DNA of 25,064 nucleotides, taken from positions 1 through 25,064 of IMG/VR virus record IMGVR_UViG_3300033981_001375. One strand, 5' to 3'. The translations under genes were made by a program, and so were the position numbers. The notes beneath the pieces are model-generated. The model saw only the letters and a program-made list of their open reading frames with translations. It did not search any database and was not told the origin of the DNA. The DNA is from a virus. Below, piece by piece: positions 14,453-25,064 of this stretch (within the stretch, counting starts at the first letter, position 1; each line of letters opens with the position of its first letter).

Positions 14453-14505
14453 GGCTACTACCTAAATGCCTGGTGCCCTTATGCAGTATCAAACCACTAG
14501 GCTCT

Positions 14506-15375
14506 ATGGTTAAGCCGCTTTTGCGACTTGAGCGCCGCTCCCCGGAGCTGCTGGAAGTGCGAATCCCGTATGGCAAAGCCGAACCCCATACGTTCTTACT
14601 CGCATCTGATATTCACCTTGATAACCCAAAGTGTAATAGGGATTTACTAAAAAAGCACCTTAAACAAGCACAGGGCGTGGGTGGACACGCCCTTTTCTTT
14701 GGGGATGTGATGTGTTTGATGCAAGGCAAAAAAGATCGACGTGGCTCAAAGAGCAGTATCAGGCCAGAGCATCTGGGCAGCAATTATTTTGATCTGGTTT
14801 TTAGCGAAACTGCTGAATGGCTTTCGCCTTTCTCTTCAACCATCCTGATGATGTCTGACGGCAACCACGAGACCGCCGTTCTGAACAATCAAGAAGTGGA
14901 CCCCTTGGGCAATGTGGTTAGGCTAATGAGGGAGCGGTATAAATCCCCTGTTGAACACATGCGCTATCAGGGGTGGATATGGTTCACGTTTTACCGTGCA
15001 GGCGAAACGAGGGAACATAGTGCGCGACGGTGTACGTTGTTCTTCCATCATGGTGCCTGGGGAGGGATTGTAAGTAAGGGCGTGCTCGGGGGGATGAGAT
15101 ACAGCTCACTGGCGCCGGAATCTTCGATCATTGTTAACGGGCATAACCACGAGAGGTCTATAGTTAGTCATCCATGCTATCGGCTAAACGAAAATGGAAA
15201 ACAGAGAGTTTCTCAGCGCTGGCATGTGCAGACAGGTTGCTACAAAGAAGAGTTTGAAGACGGTGCTGGCTGGGCGGTGGAGCGTATTGTGATGCCTAAG
15301 TCGTTAGGTGGGGTGTGGCTCAAACTTTGGCCCACTCGTGAAGGTGTAGAGATCAGCTTGGAGCCCGCAATATGA
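14506..15375 (+). CDS. Calcineurin-like metallophosphoesterase
   Basis: 289 residues from ATG at 14506, which has an AGG about 5 bases upstream; a GTG 33 bp earlier lacks any ribosome binding site. All metal-binding blocks of the superfamily are visible: ASDIHLD (Asp35, His37), FFGDV (Asp67), DGNHE (Asn120, His121), FFHHGAWGG (His181/182) and NGHNHE (His213, His215). It should therefore bind two metals and hydrolyse phosphoesters; the substrate cannot be told. A DNA-processing or nucleotide role is possible. It overlaps the next gene by four bases (ATGA). Such genes occur in many tailed phages, but their place inside a head operon, on the opposite strand, is unusual. Confidence 0.88.
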   Translation: MVKPLLRLERRSPELLEVRIPYGKAEPHTFLLASDIHLDNPKCNRDLLKKHLKQAQGVGGHALFFGDVMCLMQGKKDRRGSKSSIRPEHLGSNYFDLVFSETAEWLSPFSSTILMMSDGNHETAVLNNQEVDPLGNVVRLMRERYKSPVEHMRYQGWIWFTFYRAGETREHSARRCTLFFHHGAWGGIVSKGVLGGMRYSSLAPESSIIVNGHNHERSIVSHPCYRLNENGKQRVSQRWHVQTGCYKEEFEDGAGWAVERIVMPKSLGGVWLKLWPTREGVEISLEPAI

Positions 15376-15548: not shown

Positions 15549-15673
15549 TCAGGAGTAACAGCTGATAGGGGTGCCCGGCCTTCGGTACGGTTTCAGGCTG
15601 CCCCCAACGAAAGCAACCACCGCGCCCCCCTTGCGGATGATGGGCCGACCGGACCTGGCGAGCGTAGGGCATG
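15549..15673. other. Intergenic stretch with no gene seen
   Basis: 125 bp between the converging plus-strand and minus-strand genes. It is GC-rich and includes a run of C at about 15628-15633. I see no convincing small gene, tRNA or terminator for the plus-strand group. It could be a junction of the inserted block, but no direct repeat was identified. Confidence 0.4.
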
Positions 15674-15698
15674 AAAAAGCCCCGGTGGTGGTCGGGGC
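15674..15698 (-). terminator. Rho-independent terminator of the 82-residue gene
   Basis: On the minus strand a perfect 6-bp stem GCCCCG / CGGGGC with an 8-base loop (ACCACCAC) is followed by TTTTT. It lies 22 bp after the stop of the gene at 15721-15969 and closes that single-gene unit. Confidence 0.85.
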
Positions 15699-15969: not shown

Positions 15970-16071
15970 GTCTGGTGTTGGGTGGTGGAGGGCCTCCCCT
16001 CCGATGAACTAATAGTAGCGCGTACCGTTGCGGTTAGTAGGGGATTGGCGGATCAGTTTACAACCCGTCAC
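15970..16071 (-). promoter_or_regulatory. Promoter/leader module copy A
   Basis: A 90-bp block (15982-16071) plus 12 bp up to the ATG. On the minus strand it reads: upstream box GTGACGG-TTGT, a variable spacer, AACCGCAACG, GCGC, then TACTAT (16017-16012) as a probable -10 box, then a GGAGGG-GAGG-CCCTCC hairpin (16002-15987). A 40-bp core (15982-16021) is identical in copies B and C, and all three copies have the same length and spacing to the start codon. No -35 box of the sigma-70 type is obvious. The hairpin holds GGAGG-type sequence, but too far from the ATG for a normal ribosome binding site. Confidence 0.8.
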
Positions 16072-16077
16072 ATAATG

Positions 16078-16100
16078 AAAAAGCCCCTCGGGTGAGGGGC
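16078..16100 (-). terminator. Rho-independent terminator of the 63-residue gene
   Basis: Minus-strand stem GCCCCTC / GAGGGGC (7 bp, perfect) with loop ACCC is followed by TTTTT. It lies 14 bp after the stop of the gene at 16114-16305 and just upstream of promoter module A, so it insulates the two units. Confidence 0.9.
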
Positions 16101-16113
16101 GGTCGCGGCGGGG

Positions 16114-16305
16114 TTAGCCGAGGTTGTACTTGGCCCAGGTCTTGACTTGGCCCAGGGTTACAAAGCGCTCAATCTCGCCGGCGTAACGAAGCTGGAAACG
16201 GTAACCGGTGACGGCCAGGCCAGTACTACCCATGTCAACCATGAACACGCCTACGGCCATGAGAGCAAGTTGAACGTCAGAAGCGGAACGGGCGGTGATG
16301 GTCAT
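16114..16305 (-). CDS. Small protein 2 of the leader-module block (63 aa)
   Basis: 63 residues from ATG at 16305, 12 bp after leader module B. Sequence: ARSASDVQLALMAVGVFMVD, then MGSTGLAVTGYRFQLRYAG and IERFVTLGQVKTWAKYNLG. The pattern is helix, two or three strands with glycines, and helix, a compact soluble fold. Its first codons (ATG ACC A) match those of the other two module-driven genes. No family can be named with certainty. It has its own terminator at 16078-16100. Confidence 0.7.
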   Translation of the reverse strand: MTITARSASDVQLALMAVGVFMVDMGSTGLAVTGYRFQLRYAGEIERFVTLGQVKTWAKYNLG

Positions 16306-16407
16306 TTGCTTTGTTAGGTGGTGGAGGGCCTCCCCTCCGATGAACTAATAGTAGCGCTTGCCGTTGCGGTTGCCATGCTCCCATCAGGCCTGTTCACAAT
16401 CCGTCAC
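16306..16407 (-). promoter_or_regulatory. Promoter/leader module copy B
   Basis: Same 90-bp structure as copy A (16318-16407), with -10 box TACTAT at 16353-16348, hairpin at 16338-16323, and a 12-bp gap to the ATG. The upstream box (GTGACGG-TTGTGAAC, read on the minus strand) overlaps the TGA stop of the zinc-ribbon gene, so the module begins inside the end of the preceding gene. Confidence 0.8.
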
Positions 16408-16621
16408 TTTTGGTCTTGGCCCTGACCCGTGCAACCCTGGCGGCCTTGTCGGCACGGCCCTCTGGTGTGAGCCGTTCCCAGCAACGCCGGCAGATCTCCC
16501 CATAGCGTCCGCTGCGGCCTGCTCCACAGGCTGAGCAGATCAACCGCTCTGCTGGTGGGATCTTCCCGGCTTTCCTGGCACGCCAACGGCGGGAGCGCTC
16601 GGCGTTGGTGGGGTCGCTCAC
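16394..16621 (-). CDS. Small zinc-ribbon protein
   Basis: 75 residues if started at GTG at 16621, which overlaps the previous stop (GTGA), giving MSDPTNAERSRRWRARK. An ATG 21 bp upstream is also possible. Two CxxC pairs form a probable zinc ribbon: LICSACGAGRSGRYG and EICRRCWERL (about residues 29-32 and 46-49). The rest is very basic, with SRRWRARKAGK at the front and KAARVARVRAKTKS at the end. A nucleic-acid-binding role is likely from charge and zinc ribbon. Third gene of a three-gene unit behind module C. Confidence 0.72.
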   Translation of the reverse strand: MSDPTNAERSRRWRARKAGKIPPAERLICSACGAGRSGRYGEICRRCWERLTPEGRADKAARVARVRAKTKSDGL

Positions 16622-16782
16622 CACTCCCCCAGGCGATGGCACTGCAGCACCGTGGCGCGAGGGCCGAGGCCTGCCAGCTCGATTGCTGACAGCTGCGCAT
16701 GGGTTAGGGACTGGGCCTGCAAGTGCAGGGTGCGACGTTGTCCGGAAGGGGCCAGCAGGTGGATTTCGTAGGGGTGGGTCAT
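16618..16782 (-). CDS. 54-residue protein between module-driven genes
   Basis: ATG at 16782, TGA at 16620-16618, translated directly. The protein starts MTHPYEIHLLAPSGQRR, goes on to TLHLQAQSLTHAQLSAIELAG and ends VLQCHRLGEW. It looks like a small beta-alpha-beta domain (strand, strand, helix, strand). The start of the next gene overlaps its stop (GTGA), so both are likely co-translated. It is too short for many gene finders. Function is unknown; I rate it real because of the overlap, frame and fold-like pattern. Confidence 0.62.
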   Translation of the reverse strand: MTHPYEIHLLAPSGQRRTLHLQAQSLTHAQLSAIELAGLGPRATVLQCHRLGEW

Positions 16783-16801
16783 GGCTGCGGTGGGATTGCT
16801 T

Positions 16802-16820
16802 GCCGGGATAGGCTCCCGGC
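16802..16820 (-). other. Perfect hairpin between co-transcribed small genes
   Basis: GCCGGGA-GCCTA-TCCCGGC on the minus strand, 7 bp stem and 5-base loop, with no T-run after it. It lies in the 52-bp gap before the 54-residue gene. It could act as an mRNA stability element or a weak attenuator. Confidence 0.5.
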
Positions 16821-16834
16821 GGGCCGTGGGTGGG

Positions 16835-17110
16835 TCAGTAGCGAGCGGCTAATGCAGTGGCCAGATGACGCAGGAAGTGGTGAAAGTCTCCGTTTGCAAA
16901 GTCCAGTTTCCGCACAATGCCGGCGATTTGCTCTTGCTCGGCGGCTGGTGCGTTGTCGATGGCTTCAATCACCACAGAGGTGGGGATGATGTGGGCGGTG
17001 CCGTCCGGGGCTGTCACTTCGTAGATCATCTCGGCCAGCTGCTTCTCCTCAAAGAACAGCTGCAGAAAGCGGCGGGTGCCAGTGGCGGAACGGTGAGCGG
17101 TGGTGGTCAT
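16835..17110 (-). CDS. Small protein 3 of the leader-module block (91 aa)
   Basis: 91 residues from ATG at 17110, 12 bp after leader module C. It begins with a Thr/Ser-rich segment, then RRFLQLFFEEKQLAEMIYEV, strands VTAPDGTAHIIPTS, and helices VVIEAIDNAPAAEQEQIAGIV and FHHFLRHLATALAARY. The arrangement is helix, beta hairpin, three helices; compact and soluble. The style resembles small conserved hypothetical proteins of picocyanobacteria, but I cannot name a family. It heads a unit with the 54-residue and zinc-ribbon genes. Confidence 0.7.
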   Translation of the reverse strand: MTTTAHRSATGTRRFLQLFFEEKQLAEMIYEVTAPDGTAHIIPTSVVIEAIDNAPAAEQEQIAGIVRKLDFANGDFHHFLRHLATALAARY

Positions 17111-17212
17111 GTCTGGGGTTGGGTGGTGGAGGGCCTCCCCTCCGATGAACTAATAGTAGCGCCTAGCGTTGCGGTTGGCTTGGTCACAAGCAGGCTGTTC
17201 ACAAACCGTCAC
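17111..17212 (-). promoter_or_regulatory. Promoter/leader module copy C
   Basis: Same 90-bp structure (17123-17212), -10 box TACTAT at 17158-17153, hairpin at 17143-17128, 12-bp gap to the ATG. The 12-bp gap sequence differs from copy A at one position. The upstream box overlaps the TGA stop of the MuF-like head protein (17211-17209). Confidence 0.8.
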
Positions 17213-18081
17213 ACATCTGTAACAGGAGTAGGCGCCATCGACTCAAACACCGCTTTTGTCAGGTCATCGCTCAACGGAACACCCGTATGCTTTGCGACTT
17301 CCTTGCGATGACGTGCAGCCATTCCGGCATAAGTAGGATCAATCCTTGCTATCTCAGGGTCATACGGCGCTACAGCACACCGGCACCGTGGATGTAACGG
17401 TAACTTTAACTCTGTACGTCGATAAATACGACCTGCCCTGTCTCGACATACTGGACAAGTCCGATCGTCACTTGTCGCGTAATACATCACTAGATCAATT
17501 CCTATTGTAGCGTAATACGCATTACTTGCTTCCGAATACGCACGCATACTTTCGGTTCGTACAATGGTCTCCGCTCGCCCTCTTGTAATCACTAGACGGT
17601 CTCGCATATCACGCACCATCGCATCAGTAGGGCGACCTTCTGCAATCCCCTGCGCCACAATCTCCGCAGCAGTTCGGGCAAACTCATCCCCATGACGCCT
17701 TAAATACCCCTTAGCCTGCGCCGCAGCAGCCATCGTTGCCTCAATCGGAATTGTAATATCCACTCGTGGATGAGTGGGTAGTAGCTCACCCGTGAGCGCA
17801 TCAGCTGCCACGATCCCAAGCTTGGATGCCTCCGCAACTAAATTCCGGAATAACTCGTCATACTGGTCCTGCATGTCCGGCCGCACAGCAGGAATCAGCT
17901 CACGGAACACTTGCAACAGCAGCACATTCCGTTGGCTTGGATCTCGCATGCCGCGTCGCATATGCTCCCGTGCTCGGCGAAGCAGACGATTAAACGAGCT
18001 CTCCAGAACCTGATTTAATAGTACAACTACATCATCCTCGGCATTCCGTAGCAGATTGTTGTAGCGCTCAAGTAGATCCAA
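17209..18081 (-). CDS. MuF-like minor head protein (SPP1 gp7 family)
   Basis: 290 residues from a TTG start at 18081, nine bases after the portal stop. The N-terminal ~200 residues are helical. The C-terminal domain has the diagnostic MuF/gp7 pattern: RGRAETIVRTESMRAYSEA (about 167-185), then ATSDDRTCPVCRDRAG (Cys209, Cys212) and LPLHPRCRCAVAPYD (His230, Cys233, Cys235). These Cys/His residues probably bind metal. Such proteins sit on or near the portal inside the head and may be ejected with DNA. Order portal-MuF-protease is standard, except that here about 3.4 kb of other genes comes in between. Confidence 0.88.
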   Translation of the reverse strand: MDLLERYNNLLRNAEDDVVVLLNQVLESSFNRLLRRAREHMRRGMRDPSQRNVLLLQVFRELIPAVRPDMQDQYDELFRNLVAEASKLGIVAADALTGELLPTHPRVDITIPIEATMAAAAQAKGYLRRHGDEFARTAAEIVAQGIAEGRPTDAMVRDMRDRLVITRGRAETIVRTESMRAYSEASNAYYATIGIDLVMYYATSDDRTCPVCRDRAGRIYRRTELKLPLHPRCRCAVAPYDPEIARIDPTYAGMAARHRKEVAKHTGVPLSDDLTKAVFESMAPTPVTDV

Positions 18082-19936: not shown

Positions 19937-19960
19937 AATGTAACTTTGCGAACTTACATT
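19937..19960. repeat. Inverted repeat AATGTAA-N10-TTACATT beside the tandem array
   Basis: A perfect 7-bp inverted repeat (19937-19943 and 19954-19960). Its right arm is part of the first 21-bp repeat, so the site adds an opposite-facing half site to the array. It may be an operator for a dimeric protein. Confidence 0.55.
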
Positions 19961-20033
19961 GGGCGCAGAGGAACTTACAATGAGTGCAGAGGAACTTACA
20001 ATGTGCGCAGAGGAACTTACACTGGACACTTAG
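19950..20033. repeat. Four 21-bp direct tandem repeats between terL and portal genes
   Basis: The box GAACTTAC begins at 19950, 19971, 19992 and 20013, an exact 21-bp period, about two helical turns. The middle copies share AGGAACTTACAATG plus GCAG with one to three changes; the outer copies are more diverged. The last copy reaches the terL stop codon. Same-face spacing points to cooperative protein binding. The array fills most of the 131-bp non-coding gap in front of the portal gene. Roles to consider are operator, promoter-associated site or packaging recognition site. Confidence 0.85.
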
Positions 20034-21538
20034 ATATTTGCAAAGAACGCTGCAGTATTTGGAGTTTCTGGAATCAGACTGCAGGCAAAGGCCAACGCCA
20101 TGACAGTATCATCGTTGAAACCGGATGCAGCGGCACGGACTCCGTGATCTTTCTGCTGGAAAGCGCGGAGTTCGTCCACAATCACGCCCTCTGGGAATAT
20201 CAGGTCGTCATGTTCCAACAGGAACAAGATGCGGTCCGTGGCTGTGATCTTACTGGGTTGAGAAGTGGAGAAGAGCTCAATAGCGTACTCGGGGACAATG
20301 CCTTGGAGCGCTTCAGCGATCACTGCACCCATGGCCTGTTTTTCTACGATGATGCGATGCGGGATGTAGTCTTCTATAAGCTCTTTGATCCTGCGCAGGC
20401 TGTACTCAGTGCTGCGGCCGTTTTCACGATATAGGCTGACGACTTCATAAGGCTTACTGGTGATGTCAAGTACCAGTCCTACGAAATAGTCACTGCCGCC
20501 TGCGTTGGGATCTATCGCTAGTACATATGTACGGTTAACCGAGCCGCATTCGCGCCAGGAGCCACGGGCGCCACGGCTGATCAGGTCATAGGGGTAGATC
20601 TGGCTGTCGGTGGCGCCGAAGGAAAGCTCGTACTCGGTGGCCCAGGCGGACTGGGTGATGCGACGATCCTCCCGGGTTTTCTTCGCCCAGTTGGGATCTT
20701 GGTTGTAGACCGGATGCTGGGAGTAGTGAATTGCGACGCGGAGCCACTTGTCTGGCAACTGCGCCAGGCGGCTATTGAGCTCTGCAATAACAGCAGGGCC
20801 CTGGGCGGGGGTATCACGCGCACGCTCGACGTAGGACAACCAATCGGGGAAAATACCGGCGTGCCAAAGGGAGCCGTACCAGTCAGAGGCGGTATCTGGT
20901 GTGCTGGTGACGATCACCCGGCCTTTTTCGCCCAGCATGGAAAGCGTAGGGCTGGCGGCACGGTAGATCTCTTCAGCGCCGTCAACGAAGGCGGCCTCGT
21001 CGATCCAGAGGTCTGAGCAAGAGGGGATGCCACGAGCAGCGCGAGGGCTGCCGGGTAGGAAGTGGATAGTGCCGAAGCCAACGATGCTGATTAGCGTGGC
21101 GCTGTCTGTGGCGTAACGGAATGAGTGGCCTGGGATGCTGTTAAGCATCCGCTTAGCGCGGCGAGCTAATTGAGAAGAGTCGCCCTGAGTTTTGGAGAAT
21201 ACGACAGCAACGTATCCTGGTTCAGTAGCAGCGCGACAGCTGAGGGCGTTGACAACAGTTTCACTGACGCCAACTTGTCGGGATTTATTTACAATAACAT
21301 TTTGATGGGAATAGATCTGCTTTATCAGGTCTATTTGAAAGTCATACGGGTCAAACGGGGCGACAGTGCCGCTTGTGGTGATCCAGGTGAGTCGAGCGAA
21401 TTCAGACCACCGGTCGATGGTGGGCAGGGTGCTGACAGCGGGCTCGGGGGAGGCGGTGGCTTGGGCCTTGCGGCGTTCGATTGCGGCCTGCAGCTTGTCA
21501 GCGCGGCGGGCGAGTTGAGTCAGCGATGAAGTGGTCAT
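20030..21538 (-). CDS. terL: Terminase large subunit
   Basis: 502 residues from ATG at 21538, overlapping terS by ATGA. The ATPase domain has a Walker A-like NKSRQVGVSET (about 84-94), Walker B LWIDEAAF (177-184) and coupling motif VTSTPD (about 210-215). The nuclease domain has LAIDPNAGGSDY (Asp343), IIVEKQAMG (Glu399) and FNDDTVMAL (Asp476/477). These are the expected RNase H-like catalytic acids. It drives DNA into the head through the portal and cuts the concatemer. It is followed by the 21-bp repeat array rather than directly by the portal gene. Confidence 0.93.
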   Translation of the reverse strand: MTTSSLTQLARRADKLQAAIERRKAQATASPEPAVSTLPTIDRWSEFARLTWITTSGTVAPFDPYDFQIDLIKQIYSHQNVIVNKSRQVGVSETVVNALSCRAATEPGYVAVVFSKTQGDSSQLARRAKRMLNSIPGHSFRYATDSATLISIVGFGTIHFLPGSPRAARGIPSCSDLWIDEAAFVDGAEEIYRAASPTLSMLGEKGRVIVTSTPDTASDWYGSLWHAGIFPDWLSYVERARDTPAQGPAVIAELNSRLAQLPDKWLRVAIHYSQHPVYNQDPNWAKKTREDRRITQSAWATEYELSFGATDSQIYPYDLISRGARGSWRECGSVNRTYVLAIDPNAGGSDYFVGLVLDITSKPYEVVSLYRENGRSTEYSLRRIKELIEDYIPHRIIVEKQAMGAVIAEALQGIVPEYAIELFSTSQPSKITATDRILFLLEHDDLIFPEGVIVDELRAFQQKDHGVRAAASGFNDDTVMALAFACSLIPETPNTAAFFANI

Positions 21539-22686: not shown

Positions 22687-22707
22687 TTTGGGACGGGTGA
22701 ACTTGGT

Positions 22708-22753
22708 TCAAGCATAGCATTCGGATGTGGGTGCGTCCATGCGCTGTTCGTGA
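22708..22753 (-). promoter_or_regulatory. Duplicated promoter region, copy 1 (coiled-coil gene)
   Basis: 46 bp matching 24970-25015 with 40 identical positions, including 17 bp identical at the gene-near end (22708-22724). The minus strand carries GCTATGCTTGA, with TATGCT as a probable -10 box, about 25 bp before the ATG at 22686. The match probably extends more weakly to about 22795, inside the end of the subtilase gene. Confidence 0.6.
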
Positions 22754-22769
22754 ATAGGTTGGTGCTGCG

Positions 22770-24935
22770 CTATACAAGCCAGTCCGTACTCGGGGGGCTT
22801 GTGGCTGGATCGGACATTGTGGTGGGGCTGGCCTGGGTGCCGTAGAGCTTCAGGTCAGCTATTTGCATCATGTTGCCGTCTGTCCTGAGGGTTGGAAACA
22901 CCAGGCGGTATGTGGTAAGTGCGGACAGACCATCTAGGGAGACGGCTGGAGCTTCTGTCAGTCGTGCAGTGGGCAGCTGAAGGCCGCCCGAGATGAGAAG
23001 ATCCCATCCGCCATTTCGCTGCCCATAGATCTGGTAAGAGGCAGGATCCCTGCCTGGCATGTCATTGGCTGTGGTTACCCTGAACCCAGTGATGTGGGTT
23101 GCTGTCAAGTAGCTGAACTCAATACCAGCGTTGCTACCTCCGATATTCAAATACTTTGTTACGGGATCATTATCAAACGCATTGCCTACCTTCTCAAAGG
23201 TTGGGGAGGCACTAAAACCATCAAGATCTATTGCTGTAATCCCTACGGGCGAGGGGAGAAGCCCTGGTGCTGGTGCTGGTGCTGGTGTTGGTGTTGGCGG
23301 CGCTGGTGCCGGTGGTGCCGGTGGTGCAGGAGTAGGAGTGGGGGCTGGTGGCGCTGGAGTGGGAGCTGGCGTGCTGCCGTGGCCATAGAGCTTCAATTCA
23401 GAAATCTGCATCATCTGGTTTTCTGCTCTGAGCGTCGGGAAAATCACCCGGTAGCTCGACAGAATTGGCAGCTCTGGCAATGCAATGCTGTTGCCAGCAG
23501 TGAGACGCGCCGCTGGTAGTTGCAAAGCACCTGAGGTGAGGAGCTGCCAGGAGCTGCCGTTGAGGCCATAGACCTGGTAAGAGGCCGGATCCCTGCCGGG
23601 CATGTCATTGGCCGTGGTGAGAGAGAACGAGCCCAAACGGGTTGGGGTCGCGAAGCGCAGCTGAATGCCTGAGTTGCTACCTCCGATGTTGAGGTATTTG
23701 GTGTTTGCATTGCTATCAAAGGCGTTGACCACCTGCTCGAATCTGGGAGAGTCACTAAAACCGTCCAGGTCGATTGCCGTGACCTCTACCGGCACCAGCG
23801 CTCCCGGTTGAGGGGCTGGTGTTGGAGGTGCTGGAGCTGGAGTTGGAGCAGGGGGTGGGGTTGGTGCTGGAGCTGGTGTTGGAGGTACCGGGGCCGGTGT
23901 TGGAGCTGGAAAAGCGCCAGTTGGTGGTGGAGTGTTCAGGAATGCCGCCACGTTCAGCCGACCACCTGTCACTGTTTTGCCCGCCAACGAGGCTGTTGGA
24001 GTGGTACTCGCTAGCAACGCTTCTCGAATCTGTTGAGCACTAGCGTTGGGATACTTTGCGGCATAAAGTGCAATCGCCCCCGTAACATGCGGCGCCGCCA
24101 TAGAGGTTCCGCTCAGGGTTGAGTAATTGTTTCCTGGCAGGGTGGAGTAAATGCCAGACGAGGGTGCGGCTAGATCTACCGTTGTCCTTCCATAATTGTA
24201 TTGTTGATTTCCGTTGACATCCAATCCTGTTACAGAGATGACGGCTTCGTAACCGGCTCTCTGCAAGGTGCTGATCCCCGATGGGTAGGAGACATGAACA
24301 TCACTGTCCCGACCGGAATTGCCAGCAGCCGCGACGAACAAAATGTCTGCCTGCGCGGCTCGAAGGATGGCGTCCTCCATCCAAGGGCCTGTTCCACCTG
24401 ACCAGGAATGGTTGCTGGCCACGATGTTGAGGCCATGACGCCGTTTCAGATCCGTCAAGTAATCCAGGGCCCTCTGGACCCCGATGGTCGTTCCGCCGCG
24501 ATTCCCTATGAATTTGATGGGGATAATTCGCAGGTTGGGGGCTACTCCAACCACACCTTGGCTATTTCCACCAACAGCCCCGATAATTCCGGCTACATGG
24601 GTGCCGTGGCCATCTTGAGGGCCGTCAAAAACCGTATTGTCGTTTCTATCGAAATCCCAGCCGCGAATATCATCAATGTAGCCGTTCCCGTCATTATCAA
24701 TTCCGTCTACGGTCTCGTGGGGGTTGACCCAGATATTCGCAGCCAGATCAGGGTGATTAAAATCCACCCCTGTGTCAATAATTCCCACATAAACATCCCT
24801 CGATCCCGTGTGGCCTGTTTTCCATGCTGCTTCGGCATTGGAGCCAAAGCCAGGGCCCATGCCCCATAAGTGGCCATTGGTGTAGCCGGGGTCATTGATG
24901 GTGACGTTGCTCGTGAAGAGCTGATCGCTGTCCAC
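22770..24935 (-). CDS. Subtilisin-like serine protease (S8) with two C-terminal discoidin-like domains
   Basis: 721 residues from a GTG start at 24935; an in-frame TGA lies 27 bp upstream with no other start between. The catalytic domain (about 40-335) is complete: VGIIDTGVD (Asp54), DGHGTHVAG (His110), AAAGNSG (oxyanion Asn206) and LSGTSMAAPHV (Ser278). A Ca-binding-like stretch (about 78-89, DGIDNDGNGYID) lies between Asp and His. Two Pro/Ala/Thr linkers separate two similar ~140-residue domains (about 381-520 and 566-700), both with TAIDLDGFS, KYLNIGGSN, TTANDMPGRDPASYQ and MQI-x-x-LKLYG, resembling F5/8-type galactose-binding folds. No N-terminal signal peptide is visible. It probably cleaves extracellular proteins if secreted by another route; substrate unknown. 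It may be host DNA beside the phage. Confidence 0.9.
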   Translation of the reverse strand: MDSDQLFTSNVTINDPGYTNGHLWGMGPGFGSNAEAAWKTGHTGSRDVYVGIIDTGVDFNHPDLAANIWVNPHETVDGIDNDGNGYIDDIRGWDFDRNDNTVFDGPQDGHGTHVAGIIGAVGGNSQGVVGVAPNLRIIPIKFIGNRGGTTIGVQRALDYLTDLKRRHGLNIVASNHSWSGGTGPWMEDAILRAAQADILFVAAAGNSGRDSDVHVSYPSGISTLQRAGYEAVISVTGLDVNGNQQYNYGRTTVDLAAPSSGIYSTLPGNNYSTLSGTSMAAPHVTGAIALYAAKYPNASAQQIREALLASTTPTASLAGKTVTGGRLNVAAFLNTPPPTGAFPAPTPAPVPPTPAPAPTPPPAPTPAPAPPTPAPQPGALVPVEVTAIDLDGFSDSPRFEQVVNAFDSNANTKYLNIGGSNSGIQLRFATPTRLGSFSLTTANDMPGRDPASYQVYGLNGSSWQLLTSGALQLPAARLTAGNSIALPELPILSSYRVIFPTLRAENQMMQISELKLYGHGSTPAPTPAPPAPTPTPAPPAPPAPAPPTPTPAPAPAPGLLPSPVGITAIDLDGFSASPTFEKVGNAFDNDPVTKYLNIGGSNAGIEFSYLTATHITGFRVTTANDMPGRDPASYQIYGQRNGGWDLLISGGLQLPTARLTEAPAVSLDGLSALTTYRLVFPTLRTDGNMMQIADLKLYGTQASPTTMSDPATSPPSTDWLV
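23268..23375. repeat. Low-complexity Pro/Ala/Thr linker DNA, second linker
   Basis: Short GGTGCT/GGTGTT-type repeats encode the linker between the two discoidin-like domains. A similar stretch at about 23812-23912 encodes the linker after the protease domain. Such runs are prone to slippage. Confidence 0.75.
23812..23912. repeat. Low-complexity Pro/Ala/Thr linker DNA, first linker
   Basis: Runs of GGTGTTGGAG / GCTGGAG type encode APTPAPVPP-style residues between the protease domain and the first discoidin-like domain. Confidence 0.75.
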
Positions 24936-25064
24936 GGTAGGCGCAGCAGTAGGGGACGGTCAAGCTAGGTCAAGCATAGCATTCGGGTCTGGGTGTGTCT
25001 ATGAGCTGTTCTTGAGTTGGTTGAAGGCGGCTCAGGGGACGGCGCGTACTCGGGGATTCCAGGG
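24936..25064. other. Non-coding right end of window
   Basis: 129 bp upstream of the subtilase. It holds the duplicated promoter region and a copy of CGTACTCGGGG (25045-25055). No gene was seen on either strand. Confidence 0.5.
24970..25015 (-). promoter_or_regulatory. Duplicated promoter region, copy 2 (subtilase gene)
   Basis: Match of 22708-22753 (40 of 46 positions). The TATGCT -10-like box lies about 45 bp before the GTG at 24935. The similarity continues weakly to about 25055, where both copies carry CGTACTCGGGG at nearly the same distance (75 and 77 bp from the repeat start). Confidence 0.6.

Follow-up and report, generated by a model that had tools for sequence, protein, structure and literature searches.

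A stretch of viral DNA of 25,064 nucleotides, here called the window, carries three copies of a 90-bp sequence module, each in front of a different small gene, and the question arises of what these modules do and how unrelated genes came to share them. The window covers the whole of its source, a 25-kb record of IMG/VR (IMGVR_UViG_3300033981_001375). On its minus strand, the genes of terminase, portal, and a Mu_F-type head protein are followed by an array of small genes, and then by the genes of the head maturation protease and capsid proteins. The array is thus located between the Phage_Mu_F head gene (17209-18081) and the protease and capsid genes, which bears out an earlier placement of the modules inside a phage head operon. 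The explanation that we favor, to which we assign a probability of about 0.6 in its full form, is that the three modules belong to a mobile cassette regulon, which extends throughout the phage and has an operator of its own.

Anatomy of the modules

A sequence-only reading of the window had described three copies of exactly 90 bp, each followed by exactly 12 nt and the sequence ATGACCA, and we could reproduce this for all three copies, which are on the minus strand (Table 1). The copies share an identical core, as that reading had claimed, although the ungapped run is 41 bp long and not 40 bp; a 41-mer repeat would occur in 25 kb by chance at a rate of about 1e-16. The sequence AACCGCAACG is present in all three copies, the distance from the start of TTGT to the TACTAT box is 46 bp in each of them, and the hairpin GGAGGG-GAGG-CCCTCC is perfect in the window modules, all in agreement with the earlier description. 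The downstream proteins of 91, 63, and 82 residues do not have a common domain, and their likeness is limited to the first few codons, so that they had rightly been called unrelated. Modules 2 and 1 each serve a single gene, which ends in an intrinsic terminator. The sequence-only reading recognized the modules, but it missed the gene of a zinc-ribbon protein (ZnR), the phage-specific element upstream of the -10 box, and a promoterless hairpin within the first operon.

The layout of the module comprises GTGAC / TGTGAAC repeats, located 54 and 44 bp upstream of a TANNNT -10 box. The window modules gave no match to a sigma-70 promoter that includes a -35 box. Transcription is predicted to start at a conserved A, 7 nt past the -10 box. 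Relative to this putative +1 position, the distal repeat spans approximately -67 to -51, and the proximal element -30 to -17. The hairpin begins 3 nt downstream of the predicted start, and that of module 3 occupies positions +4 to +19 of the predicted transcript. Judged from its sequence, the module is very probably a promoter with an RNA leader.

Table 1 Features of the small-gene array in the window
Feature	Positions	Strand	Remarks
Module 3 (most upstream)	17123..17212	-	promoter and leader; drives 91-aa gene, 54-aa gene, and ZnR; PWM 69
Distal box, module 3	17192..17213	-	10-bp direct repeat TGTGAC..TGTGAAC; conserved across records
Proximal phage-specific element, module 3	17163..17176	-	aACCGCAACG
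-10 box, module 3	17153..17158	-	TACTAT
5' leader hairpin, module 3	17128..17143	-	
Cassette gene, 91 aa	16835..17110	-	phrog_6004; relatives in Mycobacterium phages and one enterobacterial phage
Internal promoterless hairpin	16802..16820	-	GCCGGGAGCCTATCCCGGC; 38 nt before ATG of 54-aa ORF
54-aa ORF	16618..16782	-	second gene of first operon; stop overlaps ZnR start (GTGA)
ZnR gene	16394..16621	-	75 aa, basic, GTG start, C-x2-C-x11-C-x2-C; candidate regulator
Module 2	16318..16407	-	promoter and leader of 63-aa gene; distal repeat contains ZnR stop codon; PWM 79
Distal box, module 2	16387-16408	-	
Proximal phage-specific element, module 2	16358-16371	-	
-10 box, module 2	16348-16353	-	TACTAT
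5' leader hairpin, module 2	16323-16338	-	
Cassette gene, 63 aa	16114..16305	-	no family
Intrinsic terminator of 63-aa gene	16083..16100	-	
Module 1	15982..16071	-	promoter and leader of 82-aa gene; PWM 72
Distal box, module 1	16051-16072	-	
Proximal phage-specific element, module 1	16022-16035	-	
-10 box, module 1	16012-16017	-	TACTAT
5' leader hairpin, module 1	15987-16002	-	
Cassette gene, 82 aa	15721..15969	-	family also behind modules in L009, L011, L029, L062, L084
Intrinsic terminator of 82-aa gene	15679..15698	-	

Distribution of the module among phages

Viral contigs were scanned with parts of the module and then with a promoter pattern of fixed spacing, which yielded 86 distinct module copies on 60 loci, three of which are fragments nearly identical to the window. 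Merging of loci from the same contig and of identical copies left 46 records, mostly fragments, with at most five distinct copies per record. The search pattern imposed TGTRAAC, CTANNNT (and hence TANNNT), and CAYYGG. Positions outside the pattern, namely GTGAC at -54, G at -37, CC at -35/-34, G at -4, and G at -2, numbered relative to the start of the -10 box, are conserved to the same degree as the imposed ones. The PWM scores of the true copies range from 15 to 98 and do not overlap with those of chance pattern matches, which are -15 or less, and no score above -10 was obtained in shuffled sequence. The spacing of the module parts is therefore kept in relatives, and the idea of a common element stands against the possibility, raised together with it, that the module occurs only locally and without conserved spacing. 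An exact search of genome contigs for the window core and one hairpin variant gave no hits, the patterns being too strict; blastn of the module against phages and plasmids returned no match; and one plasmid record selected for comparison showed no kinship.

The module-bearing phages belong to at least two virion types. Their arrays are located beside a serine recombinase gene in GpA-type phages, and between head genes in phages of the window type, whereas further arrays occupy other regions. Record L007 encodes a terminase with 76-78% identity to the terminases of Synechococcus phages S-CBS1 and S-CBS3, as well as a sigma factor with 43% identity to that of S-LBS1. The terminase of the window is approximately 30% identical to those of phages of other cyanobacteria. 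The hosts are likely to be Synechococcus-like cyanobacteria, which for the window itself we infer.

The 83 genes located behind module copies belong to 45 protein families with a median length of 68 residues, and in 59 of them the ATG is positioned 47-50 nt past the start of the -10 box. The same module thus precedes 45 families of small genes at fixed spacing, in accordance with the earlier proposal of a portable expression cassette or a small regulon with a common RNA leader. The families recur in differing combinations. The window and record G021 have the same head genes and carry different cassettes directly past the head gene end, the array at that site being shorter in G021. Among the relatives, none was found in which this site is empty. 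Strict terminators follow 24 of 82 cassette genes, and not every cassette is closed. Comparison of the cassette proteins with Pfam, PHROGs, and PADLOC identified one J-domain, the rest being mostly domainless, and the PADLOC scan found no known defence proteins among them. The J-domain (DnaJ) is located at the N-terminus of a cassette protein of about 165 residues, the gene of which is present in L040, L053, L063, L077, L082, and L094, and it may possibly serve as a handle on host chaperones. Another cassette protein, which starts with MKALYITDEIDTCDCCGRT and has its own cysteine pairs, recurs behind modules at L019:11340, L036:4380, and L016 (position ~3628).

The leader hairpin is kept as a structure

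A hairpin at or near +4 is present in the fold of every distinct leader (55 of 55), with a mean z of -2.5, and the stretches flanking the hairpin have z near 0 and no fold. The segment between the hairpin and the ATG is CA-rich and unusually free of structure. Alignment of all leaders by MAFFT misplaced the 3' arms of the hairpins, and the pairs were therefore counted in 21 flank-anchored leaders, in which 96% of pair cells pair, 17 cells are changed on both sides, and two-sided changes affect four of the six pairs. The covariation of the leaders is 0.452 compared to 0.217 in shuffled ones, and the observed score was not reached by any shuffle or by any sliding of the pairing. The sequences of stems and loops vary widely, the latter including GAGA, GAAA, and AACC. 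Thus, the hairpin is kept as a structure and not as a sequence motif. It does not contain a T-run, and none of the Rfam 15 covariance models matched the modules when E values up to 1 were considered.

The sequence-only reading had suggested a sequence-based recognition of the GGA-rich hairpin. The commonest hairpin indeed has GGAGG and a GAGG loop, located 16-20 nt before the ATG, which would suit a site for a specific RNA-binding protein (GGA / GAGG) or a ribosome standby site presenting the Shine-Dalgarno sequence. However, loops differ among the leaders, the GAGG loop is not general, and the stems change in compensated pairs, as is not expected of a sequence-specific site. The suggestion is unsupported by these data, and we consider both functions improbable. 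Since the hairpin is conserved as a structure and not as a sequence, it most likely protects the 5' end of the mRNA and insulates the start site from the following gene, a function to which we give slightly better than even odds.

A second repeated hairpin, GCCGGGAGCCYATCCCGGC, is promoterless and precedes internal genes of the cassette operons, at a distance of approximately 41 nt from their ATG. Apart from the window (Table 1), it is present at L007:4164, L030:5819, L116:5628, and other sites. The recurrence of the promoterless hairpin before internal genes points to hairpins near gene starts as a general habit of these arrays, with a role in mRNA stability or translation and not in the start of transcription.

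The proximal element is specific to each phage

The proximal elements of module copies from the same record are 78% identical, as opposed to 45% between records (label permutation p 0.002), and the identities of the sequence around the -10 box are 80% and 63%, respectively (p 0.002). Neither the distal repeat (p 0.57) nor the leader (p 0.09) contains a record-specific signal, and that of the middle segment is slight (p 0.03). The new records found through ZnR provide the same picture, with proximal identities of 82% within and 59% between records (p 0.001), and p values of 0.60 and 0.46 for the distal repeat and leader. Because only these two parts are alike within a phage, the finding is most simply explained by a phage-specific trans-acting factor, and it is quite likely that such a factor reads the proximal element.

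The copies in the window resemble each other more than they resemble copies from different phages, as would be the case if they were recent local duplications and the within-phage likeness reflected shared descent of whole modules. However, copies from the same record do not resemble each other more in the distal and leader parts than copies from different records do, and in the middle part only slightly more. Gene conversion or duplication of entire modules would not single out the proximal and -10 bases. Local duplication is refuted as a full account, and we regard it as highly improbable.

ZnR and other candidate regulators

ZnR, a protein of about 75 residues, is encoded on 50 of the 60 module-bearing loci. 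In 40 of 47 cases, the stop codon of its gene is located 41 or 51 nt before a -10 box, inside the distal repeat of the next module, and the difference between the two distances equals the 10-bp repeat. A module is positioned upstream of ZnR in 34 of the 47 cases, and ZnR is therefore probably produced from the regulon that it may control. A search with the ZnR protein only, without the promoter pattern, identified 29 previously unseen contigs, of which 21 carry modules. The eight contigs without a detectable module mostly encode the most divergent forms of ZnR. ZnR was not seen among isolated phages. The predicted structure of ZnR (mean pLDDT 84) has a zinc ribbon positioned between helices. 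Fold searches with this model in PDB and BFVD gave nothing significant, and the profile match to an S14-like zinc ribbon is weak (E 0.006).

The proximal elements in front of the same gene family are 39% identical when the ZnR proteins differ, and those in front of different gene families are 77% identical when the ZnR proteins are similar. Two ZnR clades are represented by the window type (ACCGCAACG) and the L007 type (CCGTCACGG). Between records, a correlation with ZnR is seen for the middle segment as well.

The first candidate for the reader of the proximal element was a phage sigma factor. According to this explanation, the modules are phage sigma-factor promoters, and a protein of the sigma-70 family reads the -10 box together with the proximal element, with ZnR as a passenger. 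Of 27 module-bearing records, 15 have a Sigma70_r2 domain above the cut-off, compared to 2 of 24 control contigs, and records G012 and G016 add divergent sigma homologues. Furthermore, the record-specific bases extend into the -10 box itself, which a sigma factor fits equally well. However, the nearest cultured relatives, S-LBS1, S-CBS1, S-CBS3, and KBS-S-2A, encode a sigma factor and have neither the module nor ZnR, and record G015 contains four modules in 38 kb with no sigma factor detected. In the 13 records that encode both proteins, the partial correlation with the proximal element is 0.59 for ZnR given sigma and 0.00 for sigma given ZnR; the latter is -0.14 at the -10 box. The cultured relatives and partial correlation weaken the case for the sigma factor, which we consider an unlikely reader. 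Since the proximal element follows ZnR and not sigma, and the sigma-bearing cultured relatives lack the module, ZnR is the better candidate for the phage-specific factor, and we give it slightly better than even odds. The physical linkage of ZnR to the module means that shared descent inflates their correlation, which weakens the case for ZnR itself, but linkage fails to explain why the likeness within records does not extend beyond the proximal element and the -10 region.

The distal repeat is the same in all the phages and is therefore better explained by a host factor. Its sequence is suggestive of a site for the response regulator RpaB. The binding site of RpaB, HLR1, has the consensus KTTACAWW-N2-KTTACAWW and activates transcription when positioned at about -66 to -45 (PMC13421787). 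The distal box has the HLR1 geometry of a 10-bp direct repeat, agrees, in the largest copy group, with 12 of the 16 positions that the consensus specifies (background rate 2.5e-4 per position), and is located close to the activating position. It is conceivable that the modules are controlled by the host altogether, with the distal repeat acting as an HLR1-like RpaB site, the cassettes following light or redox conditions, and the phage adding only the cassettes. The distal box not being phage-specific is consistent with such control, and an OmpR-type DNA-binding domain is not encoded in phages of the set. However, the half-sites of the phage-borne module are TGTGAM and not TGTAAM, so that both of them carry an identical A to G change, and the choice among approximately 200 offsets and strands leaves the match suggestive only. 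Furthermore, host control leaves the phage-specific proximal element unexplained, and the host is itself putative. We therefore doubt that RpaB accounts for the modules as a whole, although it is a less remote explanation than the sigma factor. Among other sites considered, that of the P2 Ogr type (TGT-N12-ACA) was rejected, because ACA is not conserved at that distance, and the CRP, NtcA, and LexA motifs are poor matches.

Proposed mechanism of cassette expression

A mechanism for the mobile cassette regulon can be formulated from the comparison of the modules. The distal repeat, common to all these phages, is probably bound by a host factor. The proximal element and the bases around the -10 box would be bound by a phage-encoded factor, most likely ZnR, and the action of this factor may be activation rather than repression. 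The usual position of the ZnR gene in the operon behind the upstream module would enable autocontrol. A new small gene would join the regulon when it is inserted between two modules, for which recombination at the repeats is the probable route. In the transcript, the hairpin located close to the start is followed by the unstructured CA-rich stretch and the ATG, and this arrangement may keep the 5' end protected and the start insulated.

We tentatively propose, with somewhat less than even odds, that each phage has a private promoter code, in which ZnR made from the array reads the 10-14-bp element beside the -10 box, the two changing together, in combination with the structure-only 5' hairpin. 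If so, newly acquired genes would enter the regulon of one phage and remain unread by competing phages, and the hairpin would free expression from dependence on the inserted gene. The module represents a natural "plug-in" expression system, in which one standard unit would put any small gene under the control of the phage regulon. At least 45 families of mostly uncharacterised small cyanophage proteins are thereby marked as putatively co-regulated and are candidates for functions in host takeover or counter-defence. If ZnR is the reader, the phages would provide cyanobacterial work with a collection of small transcription regulators, probably orthogonal to each other, together with the operators that match them, and the manner in which phages add foreign genes without upsetting control would become directly testable.

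Comparison with described systems

No description of this module was found in the literature searched. The closest described kinds are PeSL cassettes, SAS/ESAS elements, and morons, each of which shares a part of the module and none the combination. PeSL cassettes were reportedly described by Arbiol in 2010 and Comeau in 2014. They are "mobile regulatory cassettes" of T4-type phages, in which a short promoter and stem-loop are repeated between genes of variable regions and are proposed to allow the shuffling of genes by recombination (PMC4503421). The module resembles them in that it, too, combines a promoter with a stem-loop and recurs between genes that vary from one relative to another. In contrast, the stem-loop of PeSL is a terminator, whereas the module hairpin sits downstream of the promoter in the 5' leader. 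The module also differs by its fixed upstream repeat, phage-specific element, linked zinc-ribbon gene, and presence in siphovirus-like phages. The module-bearing phages are not T4-like, unlike those with PeSL; they have head modules of the GpA or Mu_F type and the siphoviruses S-CBS1, S-CBS3, and S-LBS1 as relatives.

SAS/ESAS of cluster K mycobacteriophages are conserved elements in front of the starts of unrelated non-structural genes, with function unproven (PMC3203893). SAS is a 13-bp sequence, GGGATAGGAGCCC, which is located 3-7 nt from the ATG and forms a ribosome site, and half of the SAS have 17-bp inverted repeats upstream (PMC3203893). They resemble the module as a repeated conserved element ahead of unrelated genes, but the module holds a promoter 47-50 nt from the ATG and a variable hairpin. 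The sequence GGGATAGGAGCCC is absent from the positions 3-7 nt before the start codons in the modules, where the hairpin ends 17 nt before the ATG, and the upstream part of the module is a direct repeat instead of the 17-bp inverted repeats of ESAS.

The promoters of morons are normally unrelated to each other. Morons, or lysogenic accessory genes, are extra small genes with their own promoter (PMC7067206). The cassettes are similar to them as small genes positioned between structural genes, with their own promoters as judged by sequence, but the cassettes are all served by one standard promoter. As to terminators, the window has two.

The module also bears likeness to the middle promoters of phage T4, which have a -10 box, no -35 box, and an upstream element read by the small phage protein MotA. 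The shared features are the -10 box without a -35 box and the phage-specific element just upstream. However, MotA boxes are centered at -30, and T4 middle promoters lack a distal repeat and leader hairpin, whereas the proximal element of the module is centered at approximately -23.5, and no likeness between ZnR and MotA was observed.

Additional features of the window and related records

Most of the module-bearing records encode a sigma-70 family factor (for example, L027:2958-3911 on the minus strand), and some encode two. These cyanophage factors are related to principal sigma factors, and their best PDB matches are SigA chains. Past the terminator of the last cassette, the window contains an 80-bp stretch (~15560-15650, minus strand) that is nearly identical to L007:5359-5450 (plus strand). 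Related forms are present in G005 and G007, and one frame of the L007 sequence reads RLIIRKGGAVVAFVGGGLKPYRRPG. The array is adjoined by a DNA repair exonuclease-like gene (phrog_7339) on the opposite strand (14473-15375, plus), and a phosphoesterase-like gene is located near the array of L007 too. Between the terminase and portal genes of the window (19950-20045), there are three to four tandem 21-bp repeats (GAACTTACAATG...), which contain the half-HLR1-like sequence CTTACAAT once per two helical turns. A subtilase-like gene (22770-24935, minus strand) has internal repeats spaced by 543 bp and is flanked by 66-bp direct repeats (22696-22761 and 24958-25023), which are 80% alike.
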